64,000 bases of DNA, from assembly GCF_964204645.1 (NCBI RefSeq), contig NC_134036.1, forward strand, positions 4,016,001 through 4,080,000, written 5' to 3'. Source of the stretch: Tubulanus polymorphus. Its lineage: Eukaryota > Nemertea > Palaeonemertea > Tubulaniformes > Tubulanidae. Shown in pieces: positions 26,000 to 63,664 of the stretch. The notes below the pieces were generated by a model. The model was not told the origin of the DNA. It ran no database searches and saw nothing but the letters and a program-made list of their open reading frames with translations. Each line of letters starts with the position of its first letter. Position 1 is the first letter of the stretch. The translations under genes and the position numbers were made by a program.

Positions 26000-28514
26000 G
26001 AAAAGTCTAATAATTTACTACTAGAGTCAAGGCAACATTTTTCGACTTTAACATTATAATTTTTTCTCGTTATTACAATCGTTGGGATTCCCCACAACAC
26101 GCGTGAAAACGGCGCAGGAACCCCGGCGAGCGCGAGCGAACCAACGACGAACGAAAACCAGAAATTACAAACGTCGAAATAAGTGACACGACAAAAAAGA
26201 AGGCCAAGAAGGTCGCGACGCACTACTGAAATTCAAGGAGCGGTCGATTACACTCGTAGAGGTGGAGGATTGGAGCGTCCGGCTCCGCGCGCCGCGCCGT
26301 GAAAAAAGAAAAACTTTCAGCCAATACATATATATATATATACATATAATATAAATAGTATACAGATTACACGATATAATTTCACGCCTTGCAATTCTTT
26401 TAATTCTTATCCCCATTTTTTTTTTTTTTGGTATTCAACCGATTTTCTATCCCGTGCGGATAATATTTACAAGGTTTAATAAGGTAGGTAATAATAATAA
26501 TCATAATAATCGTTCCGGGACCGGTCCGGTGACCAGCGCGGTGACGGGTGCGGTCGTCGCGCTGGTCCGCTCCGCCGGTCGCCATCAGTTTGTACCATGT
26601 TATCTCTATATATCTCATCACGCTGATCGGCGCCAGTTTCGGTTTTTTTTCGAACTAGGCGCTTACAGTAAATATCGTTGCGTTCGTCTTTCGGGATAAA
26701 CATTTTCGTTTTTTATTTTCATTTCCATTTCCCCCCCAAAAAAATTTTCTAGCCTTAAATTGATTCAATTATGACTATGATTGACGGATCGTGGGCAGAG
26801 CTTGATTGCCGCGGGCACGTTTTAAAACGACTTCAATTTTTTCGCGAGAATTCAAATATCTAAATTTCAAATTGGAATTTGCTCGAAAGTTACCCGTTGG
26901 AGTTGTATAGGCCTATAGAAAAAAATTCTTTTTTTAATGTTTCACAAAAGTCAAACGCAACAATATTTTTTTTGACATTTTTTTTTGGTTCTACAAACCC
27001 GCTTTTTGAAAAGTCAAATTTTTGAAAAGTCCAAAACGACACAAATCAGAAAATCGCAACAGACGAATTAACGATACATCAATCAGAAGCGGGAGTGTAG
27101 ATTTTTAAGAACTTTTTTTTATACATTTTTTTGGTTAGGATTTTTATTCTAATTCCGAAGAATTACAATCTTTTTTTTTTCTCCTGGTCGGGTACGTGTC
27201 CAGCCTTCAAACAAAGAGTTACGTCGTTACTTCTCGTTTCTCGTATCAGCAACAAAGGCAACAATGCCGGTCGACACGGACGAAGACGCCGAGCGGGACC
27301 GGGCTCATTTCGAATATTCGGGGTCCGCAGTTGTTCAAACGTCGTTCGCGAGTGGATAGTCGAAGCATAGCGACTATTAAAAGTCCATCGTTACGATGGC
27401 ACTTACCTGCGATCTTTAAACAACCTTTGATCAACTGCGGCCCCTGAATAGGAATTCGAAATGAGTCCGACGAGACCGCCTCTATAAACAACGCGTTTAA
27501 GAAATTAAGACCGATTTCGCAATGTACTCTACGCTCCAATTACCCCCGCCCCCCAGGTGGAAAAAAGCTTCGAAAACCTCACAAAAGCGGGTGGATATCT
27601 TTAATTTCTTCGGCGATTATCGTTTTCATAATACTCAAAGACTAAAGACTGCTAGTTCAAGGCTACTACTTTTACCGTCCAACCCGGATATCGCTGCTAA
27701 GTCTTCTACTGAAAGATCCCTTCAAATTAATCATCGAATCAACAAAGGATTCTTCTCGGTAAAACACAATGTCTACGACACCCGAACTCGACGAGGTCAG
27801 ATAAACTGGTTTTAATACGCAGATATGACTATTCCGCGATGTAGATAATTCAGATATGAAATCAGTTATCGGTAGTTGGAATGCGGCTTAATATCTAGGT
27901 CGTCCTTTATTCGACATGGATATGCGCATATTAAAATACGCGCATTAAAATATGATTCAACAGCTACAACTACGCAGTTCCGTAATTATTGCGTGGGTAT
28001 CTCATCCTAACATTCTAAATGTCAAGGCCGTCTGTTACAAAACCGCATATTTGATACTAAATGTACCACGCGTCGTCATCCGGATTTAAATTGAAAACCC
28101 GGGCCGCATTGTTTCCGCATAACGCTATGATAATTTCCCGATAATAAATTGAACCTCTAGTTTGTCCGCGAAAAAGACCTTCTTCACGCATGGCAGGCAG
28201 AATATAACTAAATCGAACATTTTCAAAAATATCGAATTTTTTCGCGGTTAAATTCACGATCGCGAGGCACCGTTTCGTTCGAGCTATCTTACACACGCAC
28301 GCACGCAAACACCAAACCCGGGAAAATATAGCCGCAAAAATTAGGAAATTCCAAATTTTAGACTAAGCGCTTTCTTTAATTGTTCTTATATCGGCCTAAA
28401 ACGACGAATAACCGTTGATAAAACGCTATATCCGCGTATGATATAAAGGGAATCCGCACGATCATTACGAGAAAAAATAGACGAAGTCCGAAAATGTTTC
28501 CTTGAGCAGCGTTA

Positions 28515-28640
28515 GAAGTAGTTTATTCGACGTTTCGACTATATCCTAAAAATCATCCTCAGGTATACCGTATGTTCGGTATTCCCGAAGAAGATGATTA
28601 TTAGGATCTAGTCGAAACGTCGAATTAACTACTAGAGTAA
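28515..28640. repeat. Single palindrome related to the 25.2-kb satellite
   Basis: Left arm ttcgacgtttcgactatatc then ctaaaaatcatcctcaggta; right arm is the near complement (gaagatgattattaggatct then agtcgaaacgtcgaatt). It may be the ancestral form of the satellite unit. Confidence 0.75.
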
Positions 28641-29173
28641 CCGAAGCGGAAACATTTTCGGGGGTTTATATTTCGGTCGCTATCGTCGCGAGGCGATTTG
28701 GTAAAAAGAAGGGGGCGAATGTCCGAAGGGCCGCAGAGGTTATGGGCCACGGATCGATATTTTTGAACTTCCAAATCTTTTAAATTGAACCGATGAACTT
28801 TGATTATTCCCCGGGTCGGTGAAAACTACATTCTCGCATTCAATCGTACTGTTGTTGTTGTTGCTGTTTTTGTGCTGCTGCTGCTGTCGTCATGACAACT
28901 GCTCGACGACGCTACCTACCGCCTCCATCCGGAAGACGTAAGATAAAGCGTCGGTTTTTCCTCTAAAAAACGGACCGCGTCCATTTTAATTCGAGGGTTC
29001 CTCGCTTCGCGCGAATGCGAGGGCAGGCGCCGGAGCCCGGGTCGCCACCGCCAACCCGTGCGCGATGCGACCCGGCGATCCCCAGACGCCCCGCGCACCC
29101 CCTAGAACGCGTCCCGAGCCAGCCGCGGCGTCGGCGCGTACGCGCGAGCCGGCCGAAACGCGATCTATATCAT

Positions 29174-29175
<2 letters not shown>

Positions 29176-29215
<40 letters not shown>
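29176..29215. repeat. (CAT)n microsatellite
   Basis: About 13 CAT units next to a GC-rich block (29015-29160). It would code poly-His or poly-Ile in shadow frames, with no supporting gene. Confidence 0.95.
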
Positions 29216-29389
29216 TTCATTGCGAAGGAAACGCGCGCGACCCACTCTGAGTACTGCTCGACTACCTGATGTCCCTCATAGTCGCTTTTTGGCGACAAAA
29301 ATGAAAGTTAATTCAAATTCGGCAATGCAAGTAAATCAATAGAGGGGGTAGTCAATCGAAAATAAACTAGGAGTGATCTTCTAAATCCA

Positions 29390-29540
29390 GTTCCACAGTG
29401 GTCACGAGTTTAGACTCGACTTGAGTTGGTTAACTCATTGAAAACTAACTCGAACTTAAGAGTTAACTTCATTTTCAATGAGTTAGACTCTCAGACTAAG
29501 AGTTAACTCTATACTCGCACAACCGCGGAACTGGGTGATC
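29390..29540. mobile_element. MITE family D copy in the OAZ downstream region
   Basis: Ends atccagttccacagtgg and caaccgcggaactgggtgat. The interior contains ttaactcattgaaaactaac facing its complement ttttcaatgagtta, so most of the element can fold on itself. Confidence 0.7.
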
Positions 29541-29969
29541 CCGAGTGTATTTCCGAGTGTATTCGACGGTAATTCGATTTTCTCGCGAGTTTTGAGCCGT
29601 TAACTCGTCAATTGCGAGGTCAGACCGCGACGCGACGAACTCGTCCGAGCTCGGAGACCACTATTCCAAAATCTTCTATATATCCCGATTCATCGAGCCT
29701 TTCAGCAAGAAAGCGAGGAGCAGTGTCCCGATACGCATCTCGAGACCTACTCCTCGCCTATTCATATCGTGGTCTCGTGTCGACATAACTCGAGGAGTTA
29801 ACCGTTACAAGTCCCGCGAAGTGCGGAACCCGGAGTCAGTCGCGGGTCGACGCGGCTTCCGATCGAGCAATGGTTACGCGATTCAACAGCGCGAAACTAC
29901 TGACGAACTCGGCCACCGGGGGGCGAGCCGTCGTGTAGCACGCGGCTGAATTGAATCGATTCGAACGAT

Positions 29970-29975
29970 TTTATT
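29970..29975 (-). terminator. OAZ1: Candidate OAZ polyadenylation signal AATAAA
   Basis: First canonical AATAAA (minus) that I find downstream of the OAZ stop, implying a 3' UTR of about 1.4 kb. An upstream variant signal may be the real one. Confidence 0.3.
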
Positions 29976-31351
29976 CGAGTTTTTCAAAACGAAAATCGCG
30001 TTTAAAAAAAAGGAATGGAGCCGAGATTTCCCCAATGACGAAAACAAAATTTCGAGGCGTAAAAAGCGGCGAGGGACAAAAAACAGTCGTTTTTCGTCCC
30101 CCCGCCCTTCATCTGGGCCTGGTTTCATAGACTGAGTATCAAAGTTAACCCTAGGGGTAAATCCTCAATCTGGGTAACAACCACCATGGTTACAATGAGA
30201 AACTATGGCAATAACTGACAAATTTTGAAATGTTCCCAGAGACTATTTTTCTTCCACATCTATGAAACCCTGCCCTGGTGTTTAAAACTGAAATAGTCGA
30301 CCGACAATCACTCACGAAATGCCGGGCGGATGATCGATAGAAAAACTGAAATAACGACAAAAATTTAGGGAAATCTGGCGTTCGTATGAAAAAAGATGAA
30401 TTTTTTTTTTGATGAGAGCGCGCGCGCCTAAACGCGCTCTCATAACACACGCACGCTTGACATTCACACCCGAAATGCTGGATCCTCGGGGAAAAAATCC
30501 CCCGAATTTGAGAGACGCTTTCCAAAACGAACGGCGCCCCGCGACAGTTATCGATACCAAAATCTAGGATATAGTCATTGAGGCATTTGTTTGATTTGTT
30601 CGACCTTCGAACAGTTTGACCCAATTCAACGCATTTCCGAAGATACCATCGCTCTTCAAATTCGCGAAGATTAAACCAGTCTATCTATCAGTCGATCGCG
30701 TGGGTAGACTTTGAACAGGTCGGAAAATTACCAGATATTGAGAAATATTTACCGGGACAGGGCGTCGTGTATATTGCGAAATCGGTCTACGTATATACTA
30801 TATACTGGTGATATGAATAATTCTCGGAAACCTATCTTACCGACAAAATTTTCGAAATACGTACAATGTAGTCTTAAAACATTACACCATCAACTCGTGA
30901 ACTTATCTTGAATTGACAAAATTTCCGCGCGGTAAATTATGATATCGGGACTTTCGAACTTCATAATAACTTACCGTCGAAAACTTTAAATACTAACGAA
31001 AATCGTCTTCGCGTTTTAGAAGATTTGACATTTTTTTCCGAAAAATATCTTTCCGATGAAAATTTCGTATCTTTTTAGAGAATTATCTCGAACTTATCTT
31101 GGCGACGAATTTAAGCGAGACTCCACTTTTTTCCAAAAAATTTAGTCCACGATGACGTCAGCCACCGCGTTTACGGCGGTCAGTCCGATAAACACGATCC
31201 GTGAATTCTCCATATCCGATATGCTGCGTTGTTAATATCTAAACACGCGTAGGCGGTTTCATCTTAGTTTTCGGTTACGTCTTCATCCGGTAGAGGGCGT
31301 TGTTGTTTCGTTTCGCCGTCGCGACGGTTTACGTCTAACCGGGCGGCGCGG

Positions 31352-33809
31352 CTACTCGATCGCGTACGACATGAACATCACGTCGTTCGAACGCGGCACG
31401 AGCGGGTTGCCGGGCGCGACCGGGGCGAAGCCCAAGAACATAAACATTCGCACCAGCGACGCTGAAAATGGAGAGACGATGATGGTTGAATTCGAAACGA
31501 GCTTCGATTTCGTAAATTCGGCGATGAATATCGACGACTCACCTCGATCACTTCGATCTTTCTTGAAACAGACGACAACGTGGTCACACTTCAGCTCATC
31601 TTCGGCGTACTCCAACAGAGTAACAAAGCTAGAAAACATGACGAAAACGTATTAACAACTCGCGGCGACCTTTATTTGACTTGTCTATTCCCTGACATGC
31701 ACACGTTCAGAGTTTCCAGCGGTAAGGCCAGGGTAAAAAGAAGTACTAGGAAGATCTTTTTCGACACTTTTAGACCCAAAAGGAGGGACTTTTTGACTTG
31801 GAAAGATGTAATGAGTGCCCATAAGCAAGCATTTTCGCAATGCCTTTGCCCGAATACTAGTCATGTAGACCAGTCATATATTTCAGGGTAATTCCATAAC
31901 ACACTTTCCTGTAGATTCGATCTTACTGATAATTGAATAACCAGGCCTGAGTAATGAAATAAAGTCAAAAAGAAGGACAAAGATGATGTTTGTCCAAACT
32001 TTTTTTCAAAAAAGAAGAAGGACTTGCAAGGACTGCTGGAAACCCTGATGTCGTTGCTTTCCCCGACTCGATCTGCTAAGAATACGATCAATTAACCCAG
32101 TCAAATACGCGTAAGACACTAGATGGAAACTGTTTGATTTTACGCGCCATCTCATCAAATATTTCGCTGATATAGGCCTATCCAGCTCATGATTTTTAGC
32201 ATTTCCACAAAAATTCCCCGATTTTTCTAGAAAAGATAGGAACGAAAATCCCCTGATTTGCGGGATCTCGTTCGACAGTTCTGGATCCAGCTCCACAGTT
32301 ACGGCTAGTTAAGTACAGTTGTTACCGTTAGGCTAATTCTAACTCACTACTGTGTAACCGGGCCTCAAAGTTAGAGTTAAAATTGGTTCATTTTCAATAA
32401 TCATTTAGCCTACTCTCACAACTGAGGAATCATTCTCAATATTCTATCTTTTACTGACAACTGTGGAACTGGATCCAGTAACTTGCTACCTTGAAGGGGT
32501 TCCGATAGATGAATAACCCACCCTTTATAGTTGGAATTTCTACGCTAGGCCTACCTTTCTTTGGAGCCTTCCGGTAGGATACCGTTGGGTATCTCGACGA
32601 ACAGACGTCCGTCGATCAGGTAGGTCGTCCAAGTGACGGTCACGTTATCGGTTAAAGTGATCGAAACGCACAACTTCGAGGCGCGTTGCGCGTTGTTCAC
32701 CAAGGCCGCCGAGCCGACGGCGGGTGGCGCCGCGTCGACGACGCCGCCGCCGCCCGAGGCTCGGCCGCTGTTATTATAGTTGCCATTGGTGCTGACAGGG
32801 GGCGCTTTTAAAACCCCCACGCCGTTGCCCTCTGTCGAAGACGACACGTAGACGGCATGGGGAACATCAGGAACACTGCCGAGGCCCTGTGCCGAGGTGT
32901 ATGTTATACACCGGGCTGGATAACCTGAAAAAAAAAAGAATTTAAAAATTTTCACTCGAGGCGTTAAAGAGTTCTGGGGCCAGACTCATCAGAATGGAAG
33001 ATGGTCAGTTGCTCGAAGGTGGGACATAGATGGGCTAACCGATGGATAAATACCATGGGAACAATGAACTTTCAATCATGATCGATATCAGCTATCCACG
33101 GGTTAACATTAACCAACATTTGTGCAAACTGCAGTCCCTTAATTTCGTATTGGAACCGGTCACAAAGTAACTTCAACAGTCCAGTAAAATTATGATAGGC
33201 CTAAGTTTCTAACAATGAGCTTCTCGTTCTCAATAACGTTCAGTAAAATTATGATTAGTTACTAATGGCGACCTTCTCATTCTCAATAACTTCAACAATT
33301 CAGTAAAATTATGATTAGTTACTAATGACGACCTTCTCATTCTCGATAACATCAACTAATCAGTAAAATTATGATTAGTTACTAGGCCTAATGATGACCT
33401 TCTCATTCTCAATAACTTCGAGAAACCTAAATTAAGAGCGATAACAAAGCGGAACAGATAATTCCCGACCCATGGCCATGACGCCTGATGCCGGACTGGT
33501 GTAAAGAAAGAATTTCAAAGCTGGCCAATTTGGGGGTTAACTTTAAGTTCCTAACTATACCAACTTGACATAGGCCTATGTCTAATAATCTACTTCAAAT
33601 TCATAGAACTCAATTCATATCCGTATAATTTCAAATCTTAAAGCTCGGATTATATCATTTTACGAAGTCAAAGTAGTCGGAACAGACTGTAAATAAAAAT
33701 GTACTTACATGGTACAAACTGATGGCATAATTTCTTCCGTCGTTTTTTCTTTCGGGCCGAAATTTTCTATGGTATGTGGAATAATTGCCTTACAGGCACT
33801 AACGACCAT
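31352..33809 (-). CDS. OAZ1: Ornithine decarboxylase antizyme, complete, with +1 frameshift
   Basis: Antizyme binds ornithine decarboxylase, delivers it to the proteasome and lowers polyamine uptake. Coding exons (minus): 33809-33709, 32924-32555, 31628-31543, 31461-31352. ORF1 begins MVVSACKAIIPHTIENFG and ends LGTGPRQCS at TGA 32869-32867. The main domain is in the +1 frame: DVPHAVYVSS, a Gly/Ala/Ser-rich linker, TVTWTTYLIDGRLFVEIP, GILPEGSKESFVTLLEYAED, DHVVVCFKKDRSDR, MFMFLGFAPVAPGNPLVP, FMSYAIE-stop. About 221 residues in total, normal for the family. An in-frame TAG lies upstream of the first ATG; further Met codons at 28 and 34 echo the dual starts of vertebrate OAZ1. Confidence 0.95.
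32281..32478. mobile_element. MITE family D copy (ctggatccag..ccacagtt ends) in OAZ intron 2
   Basis: Inverted ends ctggatccagctccacagtt and aactgtggaactggatccag, about 198 bp, AT-rich middle with no ORF. Related copies: 29390-29540 and 36306-36402; partial tandem copies at 50228-50443. Confidence 0.82.
32866..32872 (-). promoter_or_regulatory. OAZ1: Programmed +1 ribosomal frameshift site (TCC TGA T)
   Basis: In the ORF1 frame the minus strand reads TGT TCC TGA TGT (Cys-Ser-stop). Skipping the T of TGA at 32869 gives GAT GTT CCC CAT (DVPH), the start of the conserved antizyme domain. UCC-UGA-U is the classical animal antizyme shift site. Polyamines raise shifting and close a feedback loop on ornithine decarboxylase. 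I did not fold the downstream RNA for a stimulatory pseudoknot. Confidence 0.95.
33008..33133. mobile_element. MITE family A, diverged copy in OAZ intron 1
   Basis: Ends cagttgctcgaaggtggg and caacatttgtgcaaactgcag, centre ataccatgggaacaatgaac. About 125 bp. Confidence 0.7.
33172..33425 (-). repeat. 60-bp minisatellite, locus 2 (OAZ intron 1)
   Basis: About four reverse-oriented copies of the unit at 10365. Two copies differ from their siblings by containing TAGGCCTA (33196-33203 and 33383-33390). Confidence 0.9.
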
Positions 33810-34940: not shown

Positions 34941-37900
34941 TTATCTATGGGCGACCGCGGCACTTTTCGCTTTCTTCAAGTGATGATAATTGGGTAGAAT
35001 TTTCGTCAGGAAATCGAGCTGTAACGTTTGCGGCTGAAATGAGATGAGAGAAAGGCAAAAAGCTATATAACCCAAGTCTGCAAGGGAGGAATGTGGTAGG
35101 GTCTCACGATGCCATCAGGTTAAAATCCGTGCGAGGGAGGAATGTGGCAGAGTTTTATGATGCCATCAGGTTCGAATCTCCGCGAGCGAGGAACGTGGCA
35201 GTCTCGGAATGCCATCAGGTTCAGATCCCAGCGAGGGAGAACGGGGCAGAGTTTCACGATCCCATCAGATTCGAATCCGATCTCCAAGAGAACGGGCGAA
35301 TCGTGTTAAACCCACTTACCGCGGGACGCTCAGCTTGTATTCGCCTGCCGCAGTCAGCTCCGTAGACGACGGTGTTTTCGACCAACGTTTCTGGACTAGT
35401 TACTTCGCACATCGCGCCGATAATGCAGCCGTTCGACAGTCGAGTTTTCGGACCAACAACAGCTACAAATATATACGATACAAATTTCCGAAAAATACTA
35501 AAATAATTCGTTCCTCGCTTGATATCAACTACGAACGTTCGTAATCAGAAATGGAGAGCGCGATGACAAACAACGGATATTAGCCATTTCATCAGGGAGC
35601 CAAATCTGGCCGATTCTGATATTGGGGTCATTCATTTATTACGTACGCATTAGGGTAGGGGGAGGGGTCAGTGCAATTGCGTACTGTAATGCTTAATGTA
35701 TATGAAATAATGGCCAATTTTGCGTACAGAGGGGGAGGAGGGGGGTTGAAAAATTCAAATTTTATGCGTACGTAATAAATGAATGATCCCATTTTTACAA
35801 AAACGTTTTGAGGCGTTCTTCGAAACAGGCTAAAAGATTCTAAAAACCTTCTTGGTTCGGAATAAGTAAGGCTGAAAAGCAGGTGACAGCACCAGCTGAT
35901 TAAAGCAAAACTCAAGCTGGGACTGAGCTATCCGTCTGCAGGCAGTTATTCTACACTAGAGACACTGATTCATCCGACCCTAAACACCAGGCGCCAGTTG
36001 CTCAAAAGTTGGTTGAAGATAACCAACAGATAAATACCATAGTAAGGCTAAAAAAAATTGATACCTTGTTTTTCCGCTCTGCTGAGCTTAAATGTTGACC
36101 TTAGAAATGAACTGTTTACATATTTTATCAAATTTTACAAAAACCGGCCGCTGCGGAGAAACAAGGTATCATTTTTGTTTAACCTAACAATGAACTTTTC
36201 GTCAGTACGTCAGCTATCCACTGGTTAACTCTAACCAACTATTGAGCAACTGAGGCCGGGGGTCAGAACTTAACCAGAGACATTTTCGATTGAAGATTAA
36301 CTACGCAGTTCCACAGTTCGGAGTGAAGATTTAACTCACGAGTTATATCAATGACTCAATGATTCAACTAAGAATTAACTCGCAACAACTGTGGAAATGG
36401 GTCCAGAAATATAAAATTTCGGCAAAAAAAATGCTCCGTCGCGCGCTACAATGCGCAGTTGAATCAGAACGGCCGAGGGGGTGGTTACACAATGCAGCTT
36501 GACATCCGAATGATCTACGCGAGACTTTAGTTGCGTCTTTTACCTTTAGCTTCTAAAACGTTGTTATCGCCGAACATCAGCGCCTGCGTACCTGGTTCTA
36601 ATTGTCAAGGTTTTTTTTTTTGTCCCGAAATTTTCAAAATTCGATCGAAAACGTGTTTTTCTTCGTAAAAAAAAGGATACAACTCCCGACTTCGAACACG
36701 TTGTTGTTGCCGATAACCATCGTGACGATCTCATTGTTTTCCGACTTTCTGGAAAAGAGAGTAATGACACGTTCGTTACATTCTTCTATCCTTCACGCGG
36801 AACAGACAGAATCTTTCAATTGTCCAAAAAGTATTATACCGGTACTACTGTCGGGGAGAAGGAGGGTTTTTCATTTTGGGATAGACCTACCGGTACATAC
36901 TTTTTAAATGCTCCCATCAGGGGTCATTCATTTTTAACGTACGCATTAGGGGAGGGGGGAGGGGTCAGTGCAATTGCGTACTGTAATGCTTAATGTATAT
37001 GAAAAAATGGCAGATTTTGCGTACAGAGGGGGAGGGGGGGTTGAAAAAATCAAATTTTATGCGTACGTAATAAATGAATGATCCCTCATGCTTACGTCTA
37101 TTTCAAATCAGAGAGGATGTGGGGTGGCCTAGCTCTGCCAGTTTTGGGCGGCGATGTAGGTCTTAATAGGACCACCACAGTCGAAATAATACGTCTACTC
37201 TCGATACATTTAACGTTGTATCGAGGGATTACCGATAAAGACTTCTTTAAATGGGGTCGAAAGAATGACTCCATAATTTGACTGCGTAACAATACATTTC
37301 TACGCCGACATACGATAATTTTGATGATTTGCAAAAATGTTCAGTTGGTATGGGTAGGAGTGGAAACATAAAGTTAAACATTCAAATTATTGAGTCACTT
37401 CTGTCTATTCGAGCCCTTCCGACGGAGATTTTTTTTGGCAATCCTTAAGTACAGCGCGAAATGGATTACAAATCAACGTTTTACATCAGCCGGCCGTCTT
37501 TGCTGGGCTTAAAACTGACATAACTACTAAAACTGACCAAGTTAGGCCACCCAACGTCCTCTCACGCAAAATTGAAACATTAAACATGAAGCTGGAACGA
37601 AGACAAAATTAGAAGGTGGGGCACCTAGCCCCATATGATCTGTCCCCGAGGATTAGGTGTTTTTTTAGAAACTAACTTGTTGATGATTTCGACTTGTTCC
37701 TCGATGAGATTGCTTTCACCGATGATAATCGGGCCTCCTTCGGCGATGATACGAGCTTTCGGATGAACGACCGTCCGTGAGCCTGAAATGAGAGTCGAGT
37801 TAATCACGTTAGTCTTCAACTTTTAAGAATCGTTTCGTCTAAGGCGAGGAGGGTAGATCGAGGGGGTCGACCGGGAGGTCTAGTTCACCCAGACCTAACT

Positions 37901-39440
37901 ACCGGCCGATATCTCTTGTTGTATCAAGTCAAGTACCACTCATTCATGCCAATGATTCGATATCATTTTATGAAAATTACATGTTTAACCCTCTCACAGT
38001 GCTGACTAATTAATACCCTATAGTGCTGGAGATAATTTGAAAATTTTTAAAAATTCCACCCTATTGTGTTGAATAACGGCTAATACCACTGTAGTACGTG
38101 CCTACACCGCGCCGCGGTGTATCATTAGTTACAAGTATTTCACTATGTTTGACAGGTGCTGCCATTTTTCAAGGGAGATAATTACTAATTACATTAATAT
38201 ACCGCAGTGCGGCGTACTAGCAAAAATCTATCACTGATTTATACACCGCACTGCGGTGTAGACGCACTGAAAGGGTTAAAGCATTGTGTTTCGCAATCCT
38301 CATCTCTTACCTATGGTTATTTCTCCTCTGAGTTCACATTCTGTACAGACAACCGCCCCTTGCGCGATCTTCAAACTGAAATTCAACGCAGCACAAATTT
38401 TAACTCATAGAATTTCGCAGTCGAAAAAATTGCGTATACAAAAATCAGGGGCTGCAGTTGCTCAAAAGTTGGTTCGAGATAACTAGCAGATTAATACCAT
38501 CATAGGCCTAACAATTGTCACAGTGTCAACTATCCACTGGTTAATTCTAACAGCTTTTCAGCAACTGGCCCCACACAGAAGGCAATATGAAACTAAGTGG
38601 CGAGTGATGACTTCTTCGATTCGAATGCGACACCTTTCTGACTGATGACGACCGAGGACAGAGTCGCAACAAACCGAGATAAACTGTATTTGGTCGCTTA
38701 GCTGACTGACGACAAATTTTTTTACTATATATTGCCTCACCCTGAACTAACCTAACCCTAATCCTAACCCCTCACTCACCTTAGGGGTCATTCATTTATT
38801 ACGTGCTCATTAGAAGAGAGGGGAGGGGTCAGTGCAATTGCGTATTGTAATGCTTAATGTATATGAAAAATGGCTGATTTTGCGTACAAAAGAGGGGAGG
38901 GGGGTTGAAAAATTTAAATTTCATGGCTTTGGCGTACGTAATAAATGAATGATCCCTTACCTTAATCCTAATCCTTACCCTAATCCTAATGCTTTAGACC
39001 CTGTAAACCTAATACCCTAACCCTCTGAACCGAACCCTCTAGATAGAGTAGCTACGATTCAAAAAGCCGCCATTTTGTATCGACGATCTAGACTGGGATC
39101 TACCACAATTCCGCCGTTGTCAGTTTAGATGGGACTCGTAAGTTAAAACATAGGAAAATGAACTAAAAGATCCAGTTAATGAAGAAATTCAATCATGAGT
39201 TTAGGCCGCCGGGAGTTTGATATATATATGACAAAAAATGACTCAAAAATATCCATCGCCATCAGAAAATTGACGTTAATTCGTCTTAGTTCAGCGCGAT
39301 TCAACTTTCAAACTTTCGAGATTCCACCTTAAAACGGTCGAATCGTTAATGCAACAGCTTAAACTAAGTTTCTGCGGGTAAAATCGAATGGAAATTCGCG
39401 TCGCTCACCTCGAAGCGGAGTTTCTATTGGGCGTCGCCAT
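34941..39440 (-). CDS. DCTN6: Dynactin subunit 6 (p27), complete
   Basis: Pointed-end-complex subunit of dynactin, which links dynein to cargo; cytoplasmic. Seven coding exons (minus): 39440-39409, 38375-38311, 37782-37677, 36748-36681, 36591-36544, 35462-35320, 35033-34941; all phases match. Product about 184 residues (human about 190). Start [11 protein letters not shown], then [103 protein letters not shown] and [17 protein letters not shown]. The hexapeptide pattern is that of a left-handed beta-helix. The exon 4 donor could also lie four bases earlier (gttgta); I chose gtatcc because it restores the usual spacing before GDNN. Confidence 0.95.
35083..35290 (+). repeat. ~51-bp B-box-like satellite in DCTN6 intron 6
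   Basis: Four units with variant cores (aggttaaaatcc, ggttcgaatctc, ggttcagatcc, agattcgaatcc), filling most of the 286-bp intron between exons 6 and 7. Confidence 0.87.
35624..35790. mobile_element. MITE family C, copy 1 (DCTN6 intron 5)
   Basis: About 167 bp with inverted ends ggggtcattcatttattacg / taataaatgaatgatccc, an inner gtacgca/tgcgtac and no coding capacity. Flanked by ATT on both sides. Further copies: 36920-37085, 38784-38956, 44864-45028, 53395-53557. Confidence 0.88.
35996..36256. mobile_element. MITE family A copy interrupted by a nested family B copy
   Basis: Outer element: ends agttgctcaaaagttggttg and accaactattgagcaact, with an inner ataaccaac/ggttaact. At accatagtaa it is split by a 139-bp element (about 36047-36185) with its own inverted ends (ggctaaaaaaaattgatacc / ggtatcatttttgtttaacc), after which aacaatgaac continues the outer element. 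TAA is duplicated at the junction. Other A copies: 33008-33133, 38456-38575, 45050-45175 and a worn one near 9745-9855. Confidence 0.85.
36920..37085. mobile_element. MITE family C, copy 2 (DCTN6 intron 3)
   Basis: Same ends and length as copy 1, about 1.1 kb away in the same gene. Flanked by TCA direct repeats. Confidence 0.88.
37987..38278. mobile_element. Palindrome-rich element family E (gcagtgcggtgta), DCTN6 intron 2
   Basis: Contains several facing copies of acaccgcagtgcggtgta, the segment gacaggtgctgccat, and the end cactgaaagggtta. Related copies: 43208-43762, 52725-52945, 56778-57270, 59808-59950, 62296-62460. No ORF. Confidence 0.72.
38456..38575. mobile_element. MITE family A, copy in DCTN6 intron 1
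   Basis: Ends gttgctcaaaagttggtt and cagcttttcagcaactgg, about 120 bp. Where siblings read agtaacaatg it reads TAGGCCTAACAAT, six bases longer. Confidence 0.83.
38784..38956. mobile_element. MITE family C, copy 3 (DCTN6 intron 1)
   Basis: Same ends, flanked by TTA direct repeats. It sits inside a run of CCTAAC-like short repeats (38745-39030), which it splits. Confidence 0.88.
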
Positions 39441-40847
39441 TTTGACTCGCTTACCGCAGTTACTTTCAATTCAACGCAATTCTAATTTATTGACAAAAAT
39501 CATATTCCCAATATACATGAACCCAATGTAACCTGACAGGGGCTTATCAGTGAAATATAGAACTTTTCATTTTTGGCCGAATTTATTGCGCGATTTCTCT
39601 CGTTATTTATCATACACGGTTATTGCGTATCTTCTCGTCACATTCCACTGGTTGGTTGTCAAGTAGCTGAATCTTGACTTCATATCACTACTTCCGCAAA
39701 AAGGCGGAAAATCTTCGACTTAAACATAAATGAAAAGAGCCGTATCTTTTGGAAATCATATCTTACATTAATTTATTCGTCATCGTATTAATTACATTAT
39801 ATACAATATATACTCTACGTAGCTACATTATACCGAACAGTAAACCTACCCCCTACCCGGGCGGGTCCGCAACCCCCCCTACCTGGAACTCCGGACATTC
39901 TGTGTAGAATTCACACTGTGTTCAGGACCCCAACCCCACCTGGAGTCCAGTTTCGTGTTCACAGGTTCAAGTTCACACAGGAAACTGGCCAGGCTAATGT
40001 CTATTTCAACCTGACTTGCGAGAGAGCATTCCTGGTTGCCTAGCTCAGTTAGTTTTGGTAGTACATACCTGATAGAAGTCTTATTAGGACCAGAATGCAT
40101 TGGCAGCTGAACTAAAATATCGTTTTTTAATCCACTTTAAATTGTATTAATTGCATGGAGTCACTTCTTGTCATTTAACCCCTTTCAGTGAAGACTTTTT
40201 GGATATCCTTCAATACAGTTTCGAATGGATTAAAAAATGATGATTTAGGTCGACTGCCAGTCCTTTCCGGTCCTATTAAGACCTTTGTCAGATATGTACT
40301 ACCAAAAATTAGCAAGCTAGGCCACCCAGAATGCTCTCAAGTCAGGTAGAAATAGACATTAGTACCGAGTACATGTGATGTAATCTATTGCACAACAACG
40401 CTAATTAATCGTCGCATTTGAATTTCATCCGGTGGAAGTATCAAACTCGGAATAACAATAATAATACACAGTGCATCGTTACAATCATCTCGTTACTAAC
40501 TAATTGCTTGAGGGTTTAGTTTTTCACGGATCTATACACACACTCAACATCGACGATTCTATATCACAAAAAGTCTACTCTAGATTCAGGTTCAGTACAT
40601 ATACATTATTACATGTATGATAACACTTAATAGTCAATCTGACAAAGTGAATACAGTGATGCAGGTATCGATTTGCAGCCCGGACCCTGACGCTGCCCCC
40701 CTCACGACATTCGACATCTAGATCATCACCAAACGCCTCAAATATAATCATTCTGAATCATATAGAATTATTCAATGTTGGCTTCGTTATCGTGGGATTT
40801 CTCTCGTCCTCATCATCGCATTCATTCATCCTATATCTGATCAGCTA

Positions 40848-42334: not shown

Positions 42335-42541
42335 GGCTTGAAAGAAATGATACCTTGTTTCTCCTAATCGGCCGGGTCACTTTTCTAAACCGCAATAGGA
42401 TTTTTAATCAGTTCATTTCTATAACTATCGCGCCTGTTACGGTTAGATCATGATTTTTCAAAAAGGTTATGTACAGGGTAGATAGGCGGCGGGCTCAGCC
42501 GTAAAATATTGGAAATAAGGTATCGATTTTTGTTTAGCCTA
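42335..42541. mobile_element. MITE family B copy downstream of LYSMD gene
   Basis: Contains gaaatgataccttgtttctc at left and aaataaggtatcgatttttg then tttagcctaac at right, about 200 bp. The outermost left bases are worn. Confidence 0.75.
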
Positions 42542-46564: not shown

Positions 46565-49500
46565 ATGGATTTATTCGGTAGCGTTTTGTTGCTTATGTCG
46601 GTGATGTTGATGACCGCGACGGTCACCGGTCAACAAACGCTGACCGAGTGGATGGCGTCCCAGGGCGATCTCAGTCAGGTAGGTCGTGTCCTAGTTTCAC
46701 AATGTCAATAAATATCTCCAATCTGTCAAAACTACTAAGGATTTGTTCGATTTTAAATCCGTCAATTTCACTTTCAAATTTGTTTTGAATTTTGAATATC
46801 GATGTAGTTGGTTTTTGTATAGCCGTCAAAATGGCTATATCATTGTCTTTTCTACTGCTGATAAAACAAGTCTCAGATTTTTTTTGATTTGTGAAAAATG
46901 GGTGTTTCCTTCTCAGCAGGGCTTACTGTCAAAAATGAATTTCTTTGATTTAGGTAAATTTAAAAAATGGTTACCCAATAATGCTTCGATCGCTTTTAGT
47001 TAAACTTTTGATCTTGAATTTGTAAACAGTGTATTTTTAAGCATTTGTTTGAAATTGATTAATCGATTTTGAAATTAGTTATAGAATAAATTTTTAGATT
47101 AAAAAAAAGGTTTTTCTTCAGACAGAAGTTAGTTGCAAAATATAATGTTCAAAACTATCGGAAATGATTGAGACATTTGTCCATAGCAAGTTTTTTAAAA
47201 ACTTTTTCGAATTTGTTGCATCTGACAAGCAAGGTTCCATACATTATCATCACAGGAGGACTCACAAATATAAACATTGAATTGAATTTTCTACTGATGA
47301 TTGTTGGATTAAATAGGTTATTATTCAAAGAAAAAAGTCATTTCAATTTTGATTAAGATTTAGTCTTTAGAGGAAATCAAACGCAAAGACCAACTTACTA
47401 TTTAGCGAATATGGCGAATTCAGTGGAATCCTCGATTGCAACGGTATCCTACAATTTCAGGTTTATCGAATTGGAATTGAAAATTAGCAATTTTTTTCAT
47501 ACTTCAACCATTTCCAGCTTCCATGGTTTATGGAGAGAGAGAGTCCTATAATATATACGTATTTACAAAATGACTGAAAATATTAACTTTTCATGGAATA
47601 GGGCCAATGTGCTATTTACAGTATCGGAGTGATCTAGGCCTATATTCATCTAAGCCTATTTTTTGATGTATTATGCTAACTGGGTTGTCGGATTTTGTTG
47701 AACCAAAATTGTTGGGATGTCTTTACGTAAGACACGTCATCTGGTGGCACGAGTCTTTGAAATACATTAAGATAAAGATTAAGATCAGATAAAACCGAGT
47801 TAGCGCAAAAATTCGACGAGTGCAAATCTGTTTAGAACGTATTGGATAAGAATTGATATTTTCTGCCGGCACTGAGAAAGCAAGCATACATCGGTATTAG
47901 CGCAGGTCTGACTGAAATAGAGAGAGAGCTCTTGATCCAGTTGAAATTCAACTAGAATAACATCGCCTTATTTCCGAGTACCGTACGAGTGATCTTTATT
48001 TGTGAATTGAAACGATTTCGCGAAATATTTTCTTTTCGATTGCACGATGAGACCGTTTCAGCCGAGGCCTATTAGCCTGACCTGAACCTCCGTAAATCTT
48101 CGAACCAGTCTAGCCCTTTTTTACTGTCAGTCAGTGTCGATAGGGACCCAACAGGATGAATGCTACCGTGGCGCAATTGATAATTCGAACTGCAACTAAA
48201 GGAGTGCTGGAAATTTTCTGGCCTGCTCGCAAGGACATTTTCTGTCTGGTTTTGCATTTCGAAATCTGTTGCTCTGTTTGTGTGAAAATTATTTGTCCTG
48301 TTTTCATGACATTTGGACATGTCCTGTGTTTGCATGGACAAATTACATTTTTGTCCTGTTTTCATGGACATTTTTTGTCGACTGCTGCAAATTTTGCATA
48401 GGAGTAACGTTGAACCCAAATGGACTACGCGAAATGCGAAAATCATGCTGAACCAGGGGCCTAGGACTCTTGATTCCTTAAAACCTCCTTCAAAACAGAA
48501 AATCCTTCGAGGATGATAATTACCTACACAGTTTACGGAGATAAACAGTACCGATTTAGGAGGAGTCTACTGTAATTGGGATATGAAAGTGATGCAGACG
48601 CTTCCTCGAAATTTGAAATCTTTTCTTTAGAAACTCCTTATATCCAGGAATAACCGATCTGTAGTAGGGACCTTGCATAGGCCTAGTTATCTGTAATCGA
48701 ACTAGGGTTCTTCTTCTCTGGCCTATTCCGAAACCTAGGCTTCGTTTTCGCGATCTCGAGTAATGGCCGCGGATTCGTGAAAAATCTCGCCGAGCACATA
48801 GGTGCCCCGATCGATTCTGCCCTGGACAGAGTGGATCTTTTAAACGAATTCACATTTGACACAGTTAGTTAACGCGTAGATGTCTCTCATTTGAATTGAA
48901 TGAGCATTAAATTCTAATCGTTAGTGTGTAATATCGTGTACATGTTCGCCTATTCATATATGCGTGCACAGGTAGGCCTTCGAGCCTAGTAGTAAAGTAG
49001 ACCTACAAGCGGCACATAGCAAATTCCGCACGTAGGCCTATACCACCGCGTAATAACCCGAATCGGGACGCGTTTGGTTTTTAAGGAGAAAGACAATCGA
49101 GTGTTTTCGACAATATGCGAAACGAAATGGCTGAAGGCGCACAATACAAAAACGTGTCCTCGTTCGTCTAAATATAGTCGGTCTCTCTCTCTCGCGAAGA
49201 ACGGGTTTGATTTCAACGGGCGTTTCCGGGCGGTTTTGTCGCTCTTGAAAGTTTTGATTTATCGGCATCGTTTCTTTCTAATTGCGCGCCGCGAATTCCT
49301 ATACGCGTATATGGTTTTTTTTTAGCAGGGCTACCTATACAGACATTAGTTCAGAACTTCACCTGAGACGTTTTAAATCGAAAATGAACTACAAACACCA
49401 GGCATTAGACATTTTATCAGCGCGCTTTCAAAAACTGATCTTGCACACTTCGCATGTGTTCAGTGCTTCACCTGAGACATTTCTAATTCAAAATCAACTA

Positions 49501-49933: not shown

Positions 49934-52900
49934 GAGTCCATGTGCTCCATTGCACTATGTGTGCCTGTGAACCAGACGACGCTTGTTAAGAATTGTCGAG
50001 GGTCTCAACACGACATTTTTCTCAATGATTCGAGGTGTTTTGAGGTTACGCAAATTTGTTCAACGTCGACGGTAAGCGGAATGCTCTTGCACTCTTACGG
50101 AGACCTGTAGACCCATTTATTTATGAAGAGACCCATTTATTTACGAAGATCGTATGTTTGCAATTTTTTTATCAGGCCAGGGTTTTGTGTTATTCTGGTT
50201 TTTTTTTAGGGTGGCGATTGATTTGATTCTGGATCCAGTTCCACAGTTGTGCGGGTTTAATTTGACTCTGGATCTGCCCAGTTCCACAGTTGTGTGGGTT
50301 TAACCAGACTCGGGATCTGCCAATTATTGCATTTGTGTGGTATAATAGTGGACCCAGTTCCACACTTTGTGGGTTTAATTTGACTGTGGAACCAGATCCA
50401 CAGTTGTGTAGACCGTAAGATTAGACTATGGATCCAGTTCCTTTTCTCGAAACCCCGCAGATCTCCACCAGTCTTCGAAATGTTCAAGAAATTCCCTGAT
50501 GCTGACTCAAATCAATATTTCAAAAAAAATCTAAAAATGAAAATACTGTCTTCATACTTGAATATTTAAATAGCGTAGGTATATAAAAGTGCCTCTGTTG
50601 ACACAGTTGTAGGTAAAGTACAAACGTGTTAGTACTATTTTTTCGATCGTGGTTTTATCGATATTCGTGGTTACGAGGGCCGTGTTTGTCTGTGTCTACG
50701 TCGTTCGGCCTTGCGGTGCGGTGCGGTGCGCGATGTATTTTTTTGCAGCGTATCGAGTAGCGTTGATATGTAATATGTATATATATATATCATCGGAAAC
50801 TCGGTGTTTGTATTGTCTGATTTCGAATTCGTGTATTTGCTTAAAAACGACAGTGGACAAATAAAACTTTAGACTTGTCAGATTCGAAAATATATAGGAA
50901 TCTTATAAGCAGATGCCATCACGAGTCCAGAAGCTTATTTTATCGGACCAAGATATGAATGGTTCAAAATAGAATGGTTCTGAGAGTTACTTTCAGTTAG
51001 CACATGGTGGCACAAATTGTAACCACTGGATGCACACAGCGGATATTTTGTCAATAGATGGAAAATAGATGGTGGAATTGATATGGCCGGTTTCGTCCAT
51101 CAGCTCAAAGCTGTTTGGAAGTACTGGGAGAAAATGCGCAAGATTTCAATAAATTTTTTCCCATTCTACTAAATCGATGCTTGACCTAGTTTTATGACAT
51201 CACAGGGAAAGCCCTTCAGAAGGGCATCATCACTTGGAAATCCCTCTAGAAGGGCTTTCCCAGTGACATCATTATGGAGAACTGTTCTACCATGTACTTG
51301 TGACTTATAGGGGAAACCCATTACCATGTATATCAGTTGAACATGCTTACTACACAGTCTACGATGATTTCATCTTTATCAGCTCTTTATACGTAATTGC
51401 AAATCCAAGAACAAATCGATTTTTGTGCTCAAAACTAAAACGTACTCAGTTGATCCTACTGAACCCATGGTCCTTTATTAGCTATAGTGGCCATCTAGTT
51501 CGAATGCCTGCTATATCTTAAGACTATCATTGACTCCCATGATGTCGTCATCAGGTGCCAGCTTCGAAATCCCCGTGACGGAGGATGGCGGTTTGTACCA
51601 TCGCAGGGTGACATCAGGTTTGAATCTCTGGTAGGGAGGAACGTGGTACTGTAGAGTCTCACGATGCCATCAGGTTCGAATCCCTGCGAGGGAGGAACGT
51701 GGTAGAGTCTCTGGATGGATGCCATCAGGTTCGAATCCCTGGGAGGAAGGAACGTGGCAGAGTCTCACGATGCCATCAGGTTCGAATCCCTGCCAGTGAG
51801 GAGTGTGGCATAGTCTCGCGATGCCATCATGTTCAAATCCCTGCGAGGACGGAACATGGCAGAGTCTCTAGGTGCCATCCTGTGTATTATATTTTACTTC
51901 CCTAAACCAAATGTAAATTGATATCGACCGATCTGAATAGAAAGAGAAAATGACTCATTCAGCTGAGCAGATTTATTATCGACCTATATAGGCCTATATA
52001 ATACTGGTACAGACAAATATTGAAATAAGTAACATCAGTTTCTATTAAAAAAAAAAAAGAAAAACTAATCGATTTTTTTTCGCATTAACGGAATGTTAAA
52101 TCGAATTTTCGATTCAATATACATCGTCTACAGATAATTAATCATAATAGATACTCATTTCCGATAACGCTGAATGTGAGGGCTATATCAGCTTGCGCAG
52201 CTGCTGACTGCGTGTTTTTCCTATACGCAAAGCTGCTGCATTCGGGCCTGTAAATACTGCTGCGCAAAAATGTCATTCATCGCAGTGTAAAATAGACGAC
52301 TAGAAAAGGGAAAAATGCACGACAGGAAAAATTACTTAGTCAAACACGAGGTTAATTACGATATGTTCATATTTTCGCCGGCTGCTTGTCAGAATACGCA
52401 CTTCGATTTGTGTGCTTAGCTGGCTTTCTTCGATGCAAATAGGCCTTTGTCAATCTGCAGGCTCTAGAACCACTACCACCACCTTCCTTTCAGACATTCA
52501 TTCAATTACTGATGAAGTGGGATGTGCGGTTTGAAAGTGATAAAATGATACCGATAAAATGTCTAATATCTTGTGTTTGTAGTTGATTTTCAATTAGAAA
52601 TGTCTCCTGTGATGCGGTGAACTCATGTGAAGTGTGGACGATCAGTTTTTGAAAATCAGTCGATCGGATACTCGCGAATAAAGGACAGACTCCAGTCTGA
52701 TTTTTATGGGATCCAGTATTTAAGACCTTTCAGTGCGTCTACACCGCAGTGCGATGTATAGATAGGTGAAGGACATTGCTAGTACACCGCATGGCGCTGT
52801 ATTGATGTTAATAAAAAGTAATTAGTTTCTATACCCTATATTGATAGATGCCAGCACCTGTCAAACATAGTGAAATATTAGTTACTAATGATACACTGCA

Positions 52901-58900: not shown

Positions 58901-61900
58901 GTCTTACTGTTGATTAACTTATTAATTTGAACAGAAATATGAAAGATGTTACTGAGGGTCTTACTGTTGATTACTGATTAATTTGAGCAGAAATATGAAA
59001 GATGTTACTTAGGGTCTTACTGTTGATTACTGATTGATTTAAACAGAAATATGAAAGATGTTACTGAGGGTCTCACTGTTGATAACTGATTAATTCAAAC
59101 AGAAATATGAAAGATGTTACTGAGGGTCTTACTGTTGATTACTGATTGATTTGAACAGAAATATGAAAGATGTTACTGAGGGTCTTACTGTTGATTACTG
59201 ATTAATTTGAACAGAAATATGAAAGATGTTACTGAGGATCTTACTTTTGATTACTGATTAATTTGAGCAGAAATATGAAAGATGTTACCGAGGGTCTCAC
59301 TGTTGATTACTGATTAATTTGAACAGAAATATGAAAGATGTTACCGAGGTTCTCACTGTTGATTACTGATTAGGCCTAATTTAAACATTTTCTTTCATAT
59401 TTCGATGAAACATTACTGAAACAAAAATTCAATTTGTTACTGATAGTACATTTCAGAGGTTGGCAACCCTGTGAATCTTAAGTTTGACGGTCTAGTAACT
59501 AGGGCCTGTAGACATGTATTAGCTTTAATGCATTCAATAGTGCTACTAATTTATCAGCCGCTGAAGGTAGAAGTCCCGTCGTTCCATTCGCGTTGTTTGG
59601 TTTTTACCGTATACGGCGGTCGTTTCAGGAAATTCTCTACGCTCCTGAAAGACGCCGACAAAACGCTGTACGACGCGGTGCAGATGAGCCTCACGTTCAA
59701 GATGAAGACCGTGTTTCTGCCGACGAACGAAGCGATGAGTAAAATCCCGCCGGCGAAAGATCCGGCAGCCAGTCCTATGAAGAAAGCCGTGAGTATCTTC
59801 CTTACCCATTCAAGCGCGTCTACATTGCATCGCGGTGTAGCCTATTGATGTTACTAGTTTATCTCCATTGAAAGACGGCAGCACCTGTCGAACAAAGTGA
59901 AATATTAGTAACTAGTGATACATCGCAATGCGGTGTAGACACACTATAGCGGTTTTGTCATTAGTTCAGCGAACTGGGATGTTTCTAATTGAAAATGAAC
60001 TACAAACACCTGATATTAGACATTTTATCAGCTCACTTTCAAAAGCTGATCGTCCACACTTCACATGTGTCCATCGAATATCATCGAATTCCCAAAACCT
60101 GATCGTCAACACAACACATGGGCTTAGTACTACAGTACTTAGTACTACTAATACTAGTAGTACTAAGTACTGTAACAGTACTTAGTACTACTAATACTAG
60201 TAGTACTAAGTACTGTAACAGTACTTAGTACTACAGTACTTAGTACATTAGACATTTTATCAGCACACTTTCAAAAACTGATCATTTACACTTCACATGT
60301 GTTCAGTGCTTTCAATTGAAAATGAACTACTGACACCAGACATTACACAGTTTATCAGCACACTTTCAATAATTGATCCTTCACACTTCACATGTGTTCA
60401 GTGCTTCACCTAAGACATTTCTAATCAAAAAAGAAATACAAACACCAGATATTAGACTTGTTATCATCGAATTCCCAAAACCCGATCGTCAACACAACAC
60501 ATGGGCTTAGTACTTCACCTGAGACATTTCTAATTGAAAATATATTAAAAACACTAGATATAAGACTTTCACCATCTCCGCAGCAGTCTTTAGTGTAAGG
60601 ACCAGCGCGAGCGGTTTAACCTGTCAGTTGCATCGTTGTTTCCGCGATGTTTTTCAGATCGTCGACAGCCATTTCCTGGACGCTCTTTTCTTCGAAAGCG
60701 ACCTCGCGCCGAATCAGGAGCTTACGTCGACCAAGCAGAATGCGTGCAAGCCAAAAATTCTCACCGAACCGGACGGCAAATGTACGTATAGAATTTTCCG
60801 TAGTCGAATACCTAAAATGTAAAGATAGATATTTATTCGAAGGTTTAACCCATTAGCGCTCAAGCCGCCTGGCCCGTTATCCCTCAAGCCGCTGCACAAA
60901 AATGGTTACAGCGGGATTTGAACCCAATAGCTTCGGATAAACTAGACATCCAAGATGTCAAAATTCCTATTCGAAATTCTGTATAGTATTTGCAGTATGA
61001 ATATGACAGATTTTAGCACTCGCTTATATCTTAAGTAAGTCTGGATGAATTTCTGGGAGGGGGGACTAAATGTCGGGACATCATTGGGCAGGGAATAGTC
61101 GGGGGAAAAGAAAGTCGATTAAAAGTTGTCACCCTGTACTCCGTCGACCCGTAAAATGTTATTTCTTTCTCGGCAGTGCTGGTCGAATGCGGTCTGGTGA
61201 CGGCGCGAATCACGTCCGCGATACTGCTCACGAAAATGGTCGCCGTGTACGAGATCGACCGCCTGTTGAACTACGTTTATGAATCGGCGTACGACCAGAT
61301 TCAAGCTAACAGCAACCTCGGGTAAAACTCTCTCTCTCTTTCGCTGACGTATGCCGTCCTAGGCTGGGATTCAAACCTGTTGACACCGCGGCGCTCTGCC
61401 ATTTTCCTACCTCACAGGGATTTGAACAGGGATGCCATCATGAGCTGCCAAATTCCTCCCTAGCTCAGATTCGAACCTGACGTTCCTCCCTCGCAGCGAT
61501 TCAAATCGCATGGCATCGTGAAACTGCCAAAATCCTACCTAGGCAGGGATTCGAACCTGATGACATCATGAGACTGCCACCTTCCCCCCCCGCAGGCGAT
61601 TCGAACCTGATGACATTCCAAGGACATGGCAGAGTCTCGCGAAGCCTGCCATGTCCTTAAAATGCCCCGAACGATGCTCAGTGGGCTGAGGGGAAAACGA
61701 AACCTCAAATCTATACCAAAAGTACCCTGAGTGGCACTGTTAAATAGAGGGCAAGAATAAACCTCAAACCTGCTGAGTGAATTGACGGGGGGAAAGAAAC
61801 CCAAGATCTAATAATTATTTCCTCGGCGGGTTTACGGAAAAGTTACCCATTCAAAGAAACTTGAACTTTATAGAATCTGTAAATTTTTGTTGCAGTGAAT

Positions 61901-62040: not shown

Positions 62041-62295
62041 GTAAGCAGATTCGCAGTAAGCGGGTGAAAAAAATCGAAGTACTGGTATTCGTTTCCCGAG
62101 TTCGATTTAAACTCTTTTCTTTTCGAAGAGAAATTTAAGCTCCTTTAGTTTCTTTCGGTAAGAATCTAGAACTCGCTTGAAGAGAAATTTAAATGCTCTT
62201 AGTTTCTGAGAGAAATTGAAACACGTTTATATTCTAAGAGTAATTAGAACTCTTCCGATCGAGAAGAGTTTCTGTATAAAAAATCACTGAACCTT

Positions 62296-62460
62296 TCAGT
62301 GCATTTACACCGCAGTGCGAAGTATGAATCAGTGATGGATGTTGCTAGTGCATCGCATCGCGGCGTCTTGATGTTATTAGCAATTAGTTTTTATATCTAA
62401 TAAAAGATGGCAGCACCTGTCGAACGCAGTTATATATTAGTTACTAACGATACATAGGAA
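62296..62460. mobile_element. Element family E copy in FAS1 intron 8
   Basis: Shows tttcagtgcatttacaccgc, tagtgcatcgcatcgcgg and gcagcacctgtcgaac; the right end is lost after gatacatagg. Confidence 0.7.
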
Positions 62461-62984
62461 ACACCGTTTTTTTCTTGCGCAATCCGTATCAAACTACTCT
62501 TCTTTTGCTCATCCGCAAATTTGTGCACCGCAGTACGATTCACGGGCAGGGTGTGGGCGTGACGGGCAGGTTGTGCGCGTGACGGAGAGGTCGTGGGCGT
62601 CACGAGCAGGGCGTGACGGTCACGGGAGGGTGCGTGGGGATGGTGGCTTTCATTTCAAAAGCACGATGCGCGGACCTTTTCGATGATGGCACCGTTTCTA
62701 ATGTCAACACAACACGCGGTTCTTAATTCGGGAGGTTAGTATTCGACACGATTCGTCCTTTTTACCTCATCAACCGCGGGTTACAGAATTCCTTCCTCTC
62801 GGCGGGGCGCCGAATTGTGATTCAAACCTCTGATGGCATCGCGAGATATAAAAGAAAAAAGCCCTACTTCAGACTCTTGTACTGTGGTACTCTGTCTGTT
62901 TTGTACTCTTGTACTGGATGAAATTGATCATAACTCCTTGTATACTACAGAACACTCCTCTCAAGTCGAATCAAAGACTTGAAA

Positions 62985-63310
62985 GTGATATCCTTGTTTG
63001 ACAACACTTGACTCCGCTTGAGTCAGTTCTCGTTGATCTTTTGACTTGGGAGTGATATCAGAGTTGGATGATACAGTAGACTCCGCTATAGTCTGATCTT
63101 TTGACTTGGGAGTGATATCAGAGTTGGATGATACAGTAGACTCCGCTATAGTCTGATCTTTTGACTTGGGAGTGATATCAGAGTTGGATGATACAGTAGA
63201 CTCCGCTATAGTCTGATCTTTTGACTTGGGAGTGATATCAGAGTTGGATGATACAGTAGACTCCGCTATAGTCTGATCTTTTGACTTGGGAGTGATATCT
63301 GAGTTGGTCG
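62985..63310. repeat. 60-bp minisatellite, near-identical copies (FAS1 intron 8)
   Basis: Five units of tcttttgacttgggagtgat, atcagagttggatgatacag, tagactccgctatagtctga. The inner copies are identical or nearly so, so expansion is recent. A 60-bp unit keeps a minus-strand ORF open (SNSDITPKSKDQTIAESTVS repeats), but it lies inside an intron with no supporting splice pattern. Confidence 0.92.
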
Positions 63311-63664
63311 GTAGGCCTACAGCATTTTTTCGACTAGAAATCATCAACATGAGAACAGCAAAATTCGTGACGCTTTGCCGTGCACGGGGTTGACTTTGTT
63401 GGGGGTTTGTTACGTCGGTAGTCAGGCGATGCCATCCGGTTCGAATCTCTGCCAGGGAGGATGGTCTCGTGTTTTTTTGTTGTTGTTCCGTAGTCCACGT
63501 TACGGATCGAAGCCCTGATTTGTTGTCCTCGTTTATTTTGATTTCCGTCCTCGCTTATTTCAGTTTTGATTTTAGTTGTAGAGAGCAGTTTTTTTATTTT
63601 GTCTCCTCCGAATTAGAAAGTTGGTCGCGGCGATTTTTGACGAAACCCCAGCCTCAGTAGATGT

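Follow-up and report, generated by a model that had tools for sequence, protein, structure and literature searches.

TAGGCCTA, an insertion-type scar at TA dinucleotides in the genome of Tubulanus polymorphus

This analysis concerns the palindromic word TAGGCCTA in a 64-kb stretch of the genome of the nemertean Tubulanus polymorphus (NCBI RefSeq assembly GCF_964204645.1, contig NC_134036.1, positions 4,016,001 to 4,080,000), referred to here as the window. The word is in excess over the whole genome, and when copies lying in repeats are compared with siblings that lack it, it is found in four of six cases as a clean insertion at a TA. This genome-wide insertion-type scar at TA is real, and its origin by excision is likely. 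The reading favoured here, with moderate confidence, is that TAGGCCTA is what remains at TA after the departure of a cut-and-paste DNA element whose insertion duplicates TA and whose ends start with GG (probably GGC). The proposal of the first-pass annotation that family B of the miniature inverted-repeat transposable elements (MITEs) is the donor is not supported.

Abundance in the window and in the genome

The window holds 14 exact matches to TAGGCCTA, at all of the positions given in the first-pass annotation, which expected about one by chance; dinucleotide shuffles give a mean of 0.43 and a maximum of 2. Apart from the copies that are compared with siblings below, they lie at 26908-26915, 32173-32180, 32546-32553, 33571-33578, 44786-44793, 47635-47642, 48678-48685, 49033-49040, 63312-63319 and, in a short TA-rich run, 51989-51996 (no strand is assigned to any copy). 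Exact matching also bears out the claimed absence of the word left of 26,908, a feature spotted after the fact. This emptiness is not due to a want of targets, since 1,924 of the 4,520 TA dinucleotides of the window are found there.

The comparison with a Markov background, which the first-pass annotation had proposed, shows that the excess is a property of the genome. The 268-Mb assembly contains 21,017 copies of TAGGCCTA and 3,365 of the reversed word, against about 2,016 expected from a second-order Markov model built from the window and eight random 10-kb stretches (42,034 seen and 4,032 expected on both strands). The reversed-word controls come out close to the prediction of the same model (6,730 seen and 6,990 expected, 7,022 and 6,030, 11,362 and 9,850, and 932 and 822, on both strands), so that the excess is about tenfold, corresponding to roughly 19,000 copies among some 20.0 million TA dinucleotides. 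Among the 8-mers of the window and 14 further loci, when distinct places are counted, TAGGCCTA has the top excess score. Its transition neighbour TAGGTCTA is seen 7,078 times, only 1.28 times the expected 5,521. This suggests that few scars have decayed by transition, at most about 4% per site, and that the average scar was formed rather recently.

The 14 copies of the window compare with a genome average of 5.0 per 64 kb, derived from the genome count, and the eight random stretches together contain four. The repeats of the window may be regionally peculiar, since the window is rich in words from a 110-bp minisatellite family (ACTACAAACACCAG, ATTAGACATTTT), at 7267-8915, 13.9 kb, 49.4-52.6 kb and 60.4 kb, that are absent from the eight random stretches.

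Scars, their empty siblings and their sequence context

The sibling scans covered the window and the fetched loci L001-L034, and then 48 sites in L029-L083, the sites in L084-L120 being left out. A sibling without the motif exists for six of the scanned sites. In four of these, three in tandem arrays and one in a dispersed MITE, extra bases are found at a duplicated TA when compared with the empty sibling, as is characteristic of an excision footprint: TA is converted into TA-GGCC-TA, a clean gain of 6 bp. Two of the clean cases are in the window, at 33383-33390 in a 60-bp minisatellite and at 59371-59378 at the end of a 56-bp minisatellite, and the same insertion recurs outside it, at L015:315 and L078:251. 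The minisatellite of the L015 copy has units about 31 bp long (measured by eye), and the TA of the siblings is in a TAT context (TAC in some). The L078 copy is inside a family B MITE and reads TATG-TAGGCCTA-CATGG, whereas the scar-free sibling, the family B copy at 42335-42539 (plus strand), reads TATG-TA-CAGGG; at this place another sibling, at 23581, has AA and not TA.

The two remaining sites require changes in the flanks. At 33196-33203, where the unit of the 60-bp minisatellite is diverged, the motif also adds 6 bp, yet the siblings show TT (in one unit TC) where TA would be. At 38503-38510, within a MITE-A copy with diverged flanks, the conversion of agTAacaat into caTAGGCCTAacaat fits a 6-bp gain at TA only if its left flank has undergone two substitutions and its right flank has separately lost about 10 bp. 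The first-pass annotation had described 33383, 59371 and 38503 alike as insertions at TA; this description stands for the first two, and for the third only with these additional changes. In the other sibling sets the copies bear the motif or its point mutant (L081, TAGGCCCA), as expected if the event preceded the duplication.

The flanks of the scars, as obtained from 86 distinct sites out of 100 contexts after removal of near-duplicates, are near background beyond position +3. Closer to the scar there is a weak symmetric preference for a pyrimidine at +1 (p = 3.5e-5) and for T at +3 (p = 0.005, which is not significant when corrected for 15 positions); this preference is of the kind made by a TA-targeting transposase. 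The scars are also clustered. Among the first 100 listed places, at the start of contig C1, and without the positions that belong to duplicated loci or to one array (nine for TAGGCCTA, five for TACCGGTA), 12 of 90 gaps between scars are shorter than 1 kb (2.9 expected), whereas for the palindrome TACCGGTA this is so for 4 of 94 (3.4 expected). The clustering could be explained by local hopping or by regional differences. Tandem double scars, TAGGCCTAGGCCTA, are found 123 times and their control five times; by arithmetic, about 40 would be expected if each TA were hit with the average frequency of the genome, about 0.00095.

Proposed excision, the donor and the alternatives

It is possible to picture the excision in a few steps. 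The element would enter at TA, giving TA...TA, and its transposase would later cut a few bases inside each end, after which end joining would retain two bases per end. Inverted ends that start with GG between two TAs, with two bases of each kept, give precisely a duplicated TA around a palindromic GGCC. The excision of Sleeping Beauty and mariner elements leaves 3-nt 3' overhangs, and footprints arise by end joining, as described in PMC7827188. If a mariner-type transposase cut here three bases from each end of the element, GGC 3' overhangs would be generated on both flanks; their GC is self-complementary, so that annealing of two bases and fill-in would produce exactly GGCC. Pairing of all three bases, with G opposite G, would yield TAGGCTA or TAGCCTA, words that are themselves about twofold enriched. 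A few copies hopping conservatively would generate many scars and leave few donors.

Several observations weigh against this reading. End joining of the Sleeping Beauty type would give mainly TAGGCTA/TAGCCTA, and these words are seen at 19 distinct places where 10.0 are expected, an enrichment of just about twofold when compared with the 13 places against 1.1 for TAGGCCTA. Scars with an empty sibling number just six, including the two that are not clean. In (TTA)n arrays, which offer 19,137 places of the empty word on both strands, one scar is found where about 18 would be expected at the mean rate; this result goes against a uniform insertion rate, and turnover of the arrays together with the flank preference may partly explain it. 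Two other words are enriched as well, TACCGGTA about fourfold genome-wide (11,967 seen, about 2,960 expected) and TACATGTA at 10 distinct places where 2.7 are expected. These may be the scars of other TA elements or the sign of a general cause of an excess of TA palindromes, and such a more general cause may be behind part of the TAGGCCTA excess. Furthermore, no convincing TA-flanked GG...CC element is found in the scanned DNA by inverted-repeat scans for TAGG...CCTA, nearly all of the 268-Mb genome being unread, and in none of the six elements or families with ends that were read does GG stand at TA.

For TACCGGTA, which is present in the window at 36837, 36888 and 58026, no empty sibling is found in the window and L001-L034. 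At L068:251 the sequence TAGGCCTACCGGTA is found, in which a single TA belongs to both the TAGGCCTA and the TACCGGTA palindrome, as though the TA of one had been the target of the event behind the other.

The scan for TAGG...CCTA in the window and L001-L083 gives six hits. Three use scar sites as ends; the others are part of a longer palindrome (L055:119-171), are inside a longer inverted repeat (window 40085-40275) or straddle the left end of a Harbinger copy (L038:596-1328). Clustering of TAGG-led 22-24-mers yields no candidate end, and no clear TA-flanked ends are recognized in the other transposase loci (L029-L034, L081-L083, L103, L104 and L107-L113). With regard to the idea of a telomere repeat, no such repeat is present in the six contig-end stretches that were read. 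Transposase profiles have matches in the genome (150 scored matches for DDE_Tnp_4, 75 for DDE_1 and eight for DDE_3), with matches to Tc1/mariner and pogo transposase models among them; the TA-flanked elements that were read begin with CA or AG. As donors, the ISL2EU elements are rejected on their AT target and on their predicted scar word, ATGGCCAT, which is near background (7,022 seen, 6,030 expected, on both strands), and the pogo-like elements L090 and L091, with ends AG...CT, on a predicted scar, TAAGCTTA, that is seen zero times where 1.5 are expected. The mariner elements L099-L102 have the wrong ends (CAGGGTG), as have the TA-flanked pogo-like elements L105 and L106 (CAGTCAAATC). The Harbinger copies L038 and L039 have TAA/TAG duplications, and the TA-flanked inverted arms of L080 start with AAGTCTGTC, within a larger inverted repeat.

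Two of these families, ISL2EU and the pogo-like L090-L092, are young. The ISL2EU family (L035, L036, L037 and L084-L086, on C3, C8 and C7) duplicates AT within A|AT|T in two of three copies; three copies, of about 5.0, 5.55 and 5.55 kb, have 100% identity in the parts common to them, and 12 genome matches, with 400-aa frames, are equal in hidden Markov model (HMM) score. L036 has a YqaJ domain (E 1.1e-13), L035 being without about 595 bp in that region, and the element contains two TAGGCCTA. The pogo-like family (L090, L091 and L092, on C8 and C5) has TA duplications and ends AGGTAACGTGGGGTGACTTGGCC (also read as AGGTAACG); its seven genome matches share one HMM score, six of them being in open frames of 741-775 aa, and between two of its copies the identity over 4.2 kb is 99.95%. 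The Tc1/mariner-like family L099-L102 (C1, C4, C10 and C6) has ends CAGGGTGTCCCATTAATTAC and copies of about 1.44 kb, with TA on both sides in three of the four; two matches are in 360-aa open frames.

In another reading no element was ever present, and a side reaction of repair or of a transposase would insert GGCC together with a second TA at one stroke. Such direct micro-insertion would agree with the uniform product and with the lack of a convincing donor in 144 kb (the window and the random DNA) that hold 18 scars. We know of no enzyme that does this, which is counted against it, and a duplicated TA around a palindrome is already the natural product of inverted-repeat ends at a TA target; this possibility is considered rather unlikely. 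It is also unlikely that TAGGCCTA is a functional palindrome, such as a protein-binding site, kept and multiplied by selection. The sharpness of the motif, with TAGGTCTA hardly above expectation, and the enrichment of TACCGGTA would suit such a site, but the clean 6-bp events in minisatellites and a MITE and the near-background flanks do not, and selection does not explain the duplication of TA.

Family B, the source suggested in the first-pass annotation, would have to leave TAGGCCTA with the loss of one A. Its ends are GGC...GCC, as had been stated, it is PIF/Harbinger-like, and it is common (1,065 first-look candidates, of which 40 were scored). The TA flank noted at 23579 is indeed present, in a single copy, which is preceded by ATA and followed by TAA; this copy (GGCTAAACAAAAATGATACC...TTTAGCC, 23581-23927, plus strand, the right end placed by eye) is split by a nested MITE. 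The target duplication of the family is TAA and not TA: the copy at 36046-36184 (no strand assigned), which is nested in MITE A, has TAA on either side, while the empty MITE-A sibling (45050-45175, plus strand, gtagTAAcgatg) has a single TAA at 45087, where it reads GTAGTAACG. The copy in L115 also has TAA on both sides. In other two-ended copies the flanks are mismatched by at least one base (CAA/TAA at 42335, TCA/TAA in L116, TAA/CAA in L119, ATA/TAA at 23581), and L120 is ambiguous. Only the MITE-A paralogues show all three states of one site, which is empty at 45087, filled by TAA-duplicating family B at 36046 and scarred at 38503. This coincidence speaks for family B, as do the TAA contexts of two of the four clean sites (33383 and 59371) and the direct scar word of the family, TAAGGCCTAA, which is 2.3 times its Markov expectation (717 and 315). 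On the other hand, TAAGGCCTAA is rarer than its reversed control (932), and its excess of about 400 is to be compared with about 19,000 for TAGGCCTA. Scars are less frequent than expected in TAA/TTA contexts (29 of 93, as compared with 51.5%; p = 1e-4; contexts remaining from 107 occurrences after the same removal of near-duplicates). Of the clean scars, the one at L015:315 was formed at TAT (in some siblings TAC) and the one at L078:251 at TAC. The other scored copies of family B are 71-84% identical to the query (94% for one 31-base piece), which suggests that they are older than the scars. Family B is accordingly an improbable donor.

The short MITE nested in the family B copy, at window 23763-23909, has CAG on both sides, which fits the CWG target that PMC4482050 gives for NuwaI elements.

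Another way to account for the missing donors is a developmental programme, in which TA-bounded GG...CC elements are excised from somatic DNA and the approximately 19,000 TAGGCCTA are the joints, or, in a milder form, tens of thousands of conservative jumps by an element that is now very rare or extinct; this is judged very unlikely. Chance, low complexity or an assembly artefact, for which nothing speaks beyond some copies common to duplicated loci, is refuted by the tenfold genome-wide excess with controls near expectation and can be dismissed.

Meaning and comparison with known systems

If TAGGCCTA is an excision scar, the genome holds a countable record of cut-and-paste jumps, with about one scar per thousand TA, that is separate from the surviving copies and from which excision rates, target choice and local hopping could be read in a single assembly; it would also raise the question of the whereabouts of the donor. 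Such a one-word signature is easily counted in any animal genome, and other marine animals may also have TAGGCCTA in abundance. In literature searches on TAGGCCTA, no title or abstract beginning among those listed is about the motif.

A close likeness is with the footprints of the Tc1/mariner elements, such as Sleeping Beauty and Tc1, which have a TA target that is duplicated, a few end bases kept between the two TAs and a symmetric target preference. The target consensus of Sleeping Beauty is ANNTANNT. The products differ, the Sleeping Beauty footprint being TA+3+TA according to PMC7827188, whereas the main product here is TA+4+TA. MITEs of the PIF/Harbinger type, as represented by family B, are similar in their GGC...GCC ends, their many copies and one site in common with a scar, and differ in their 3-bp TAA duplication, the duplication at the scar being of 2 bp; duplication of TWA is a hallmark of PIF/Harbinger, as stated in PMC4482050. 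The ISL2EU elements, with young copies here (L035-L037), have GG...CC ends and a 2-bp duplication, but they duplicate AT within A|AT|T, as in two of the three copies here and in the description of PMC4482050, and ATGGCCAT is near background. The TA-bounded internal eliminated sequences of ciliates are comparable in that TA-bounded elements are lost from somatic DNA, which would leave marks without donors. Their excision differs in being free of scars, a single TA being restored, and there is no evidence of elimination in the present genome.

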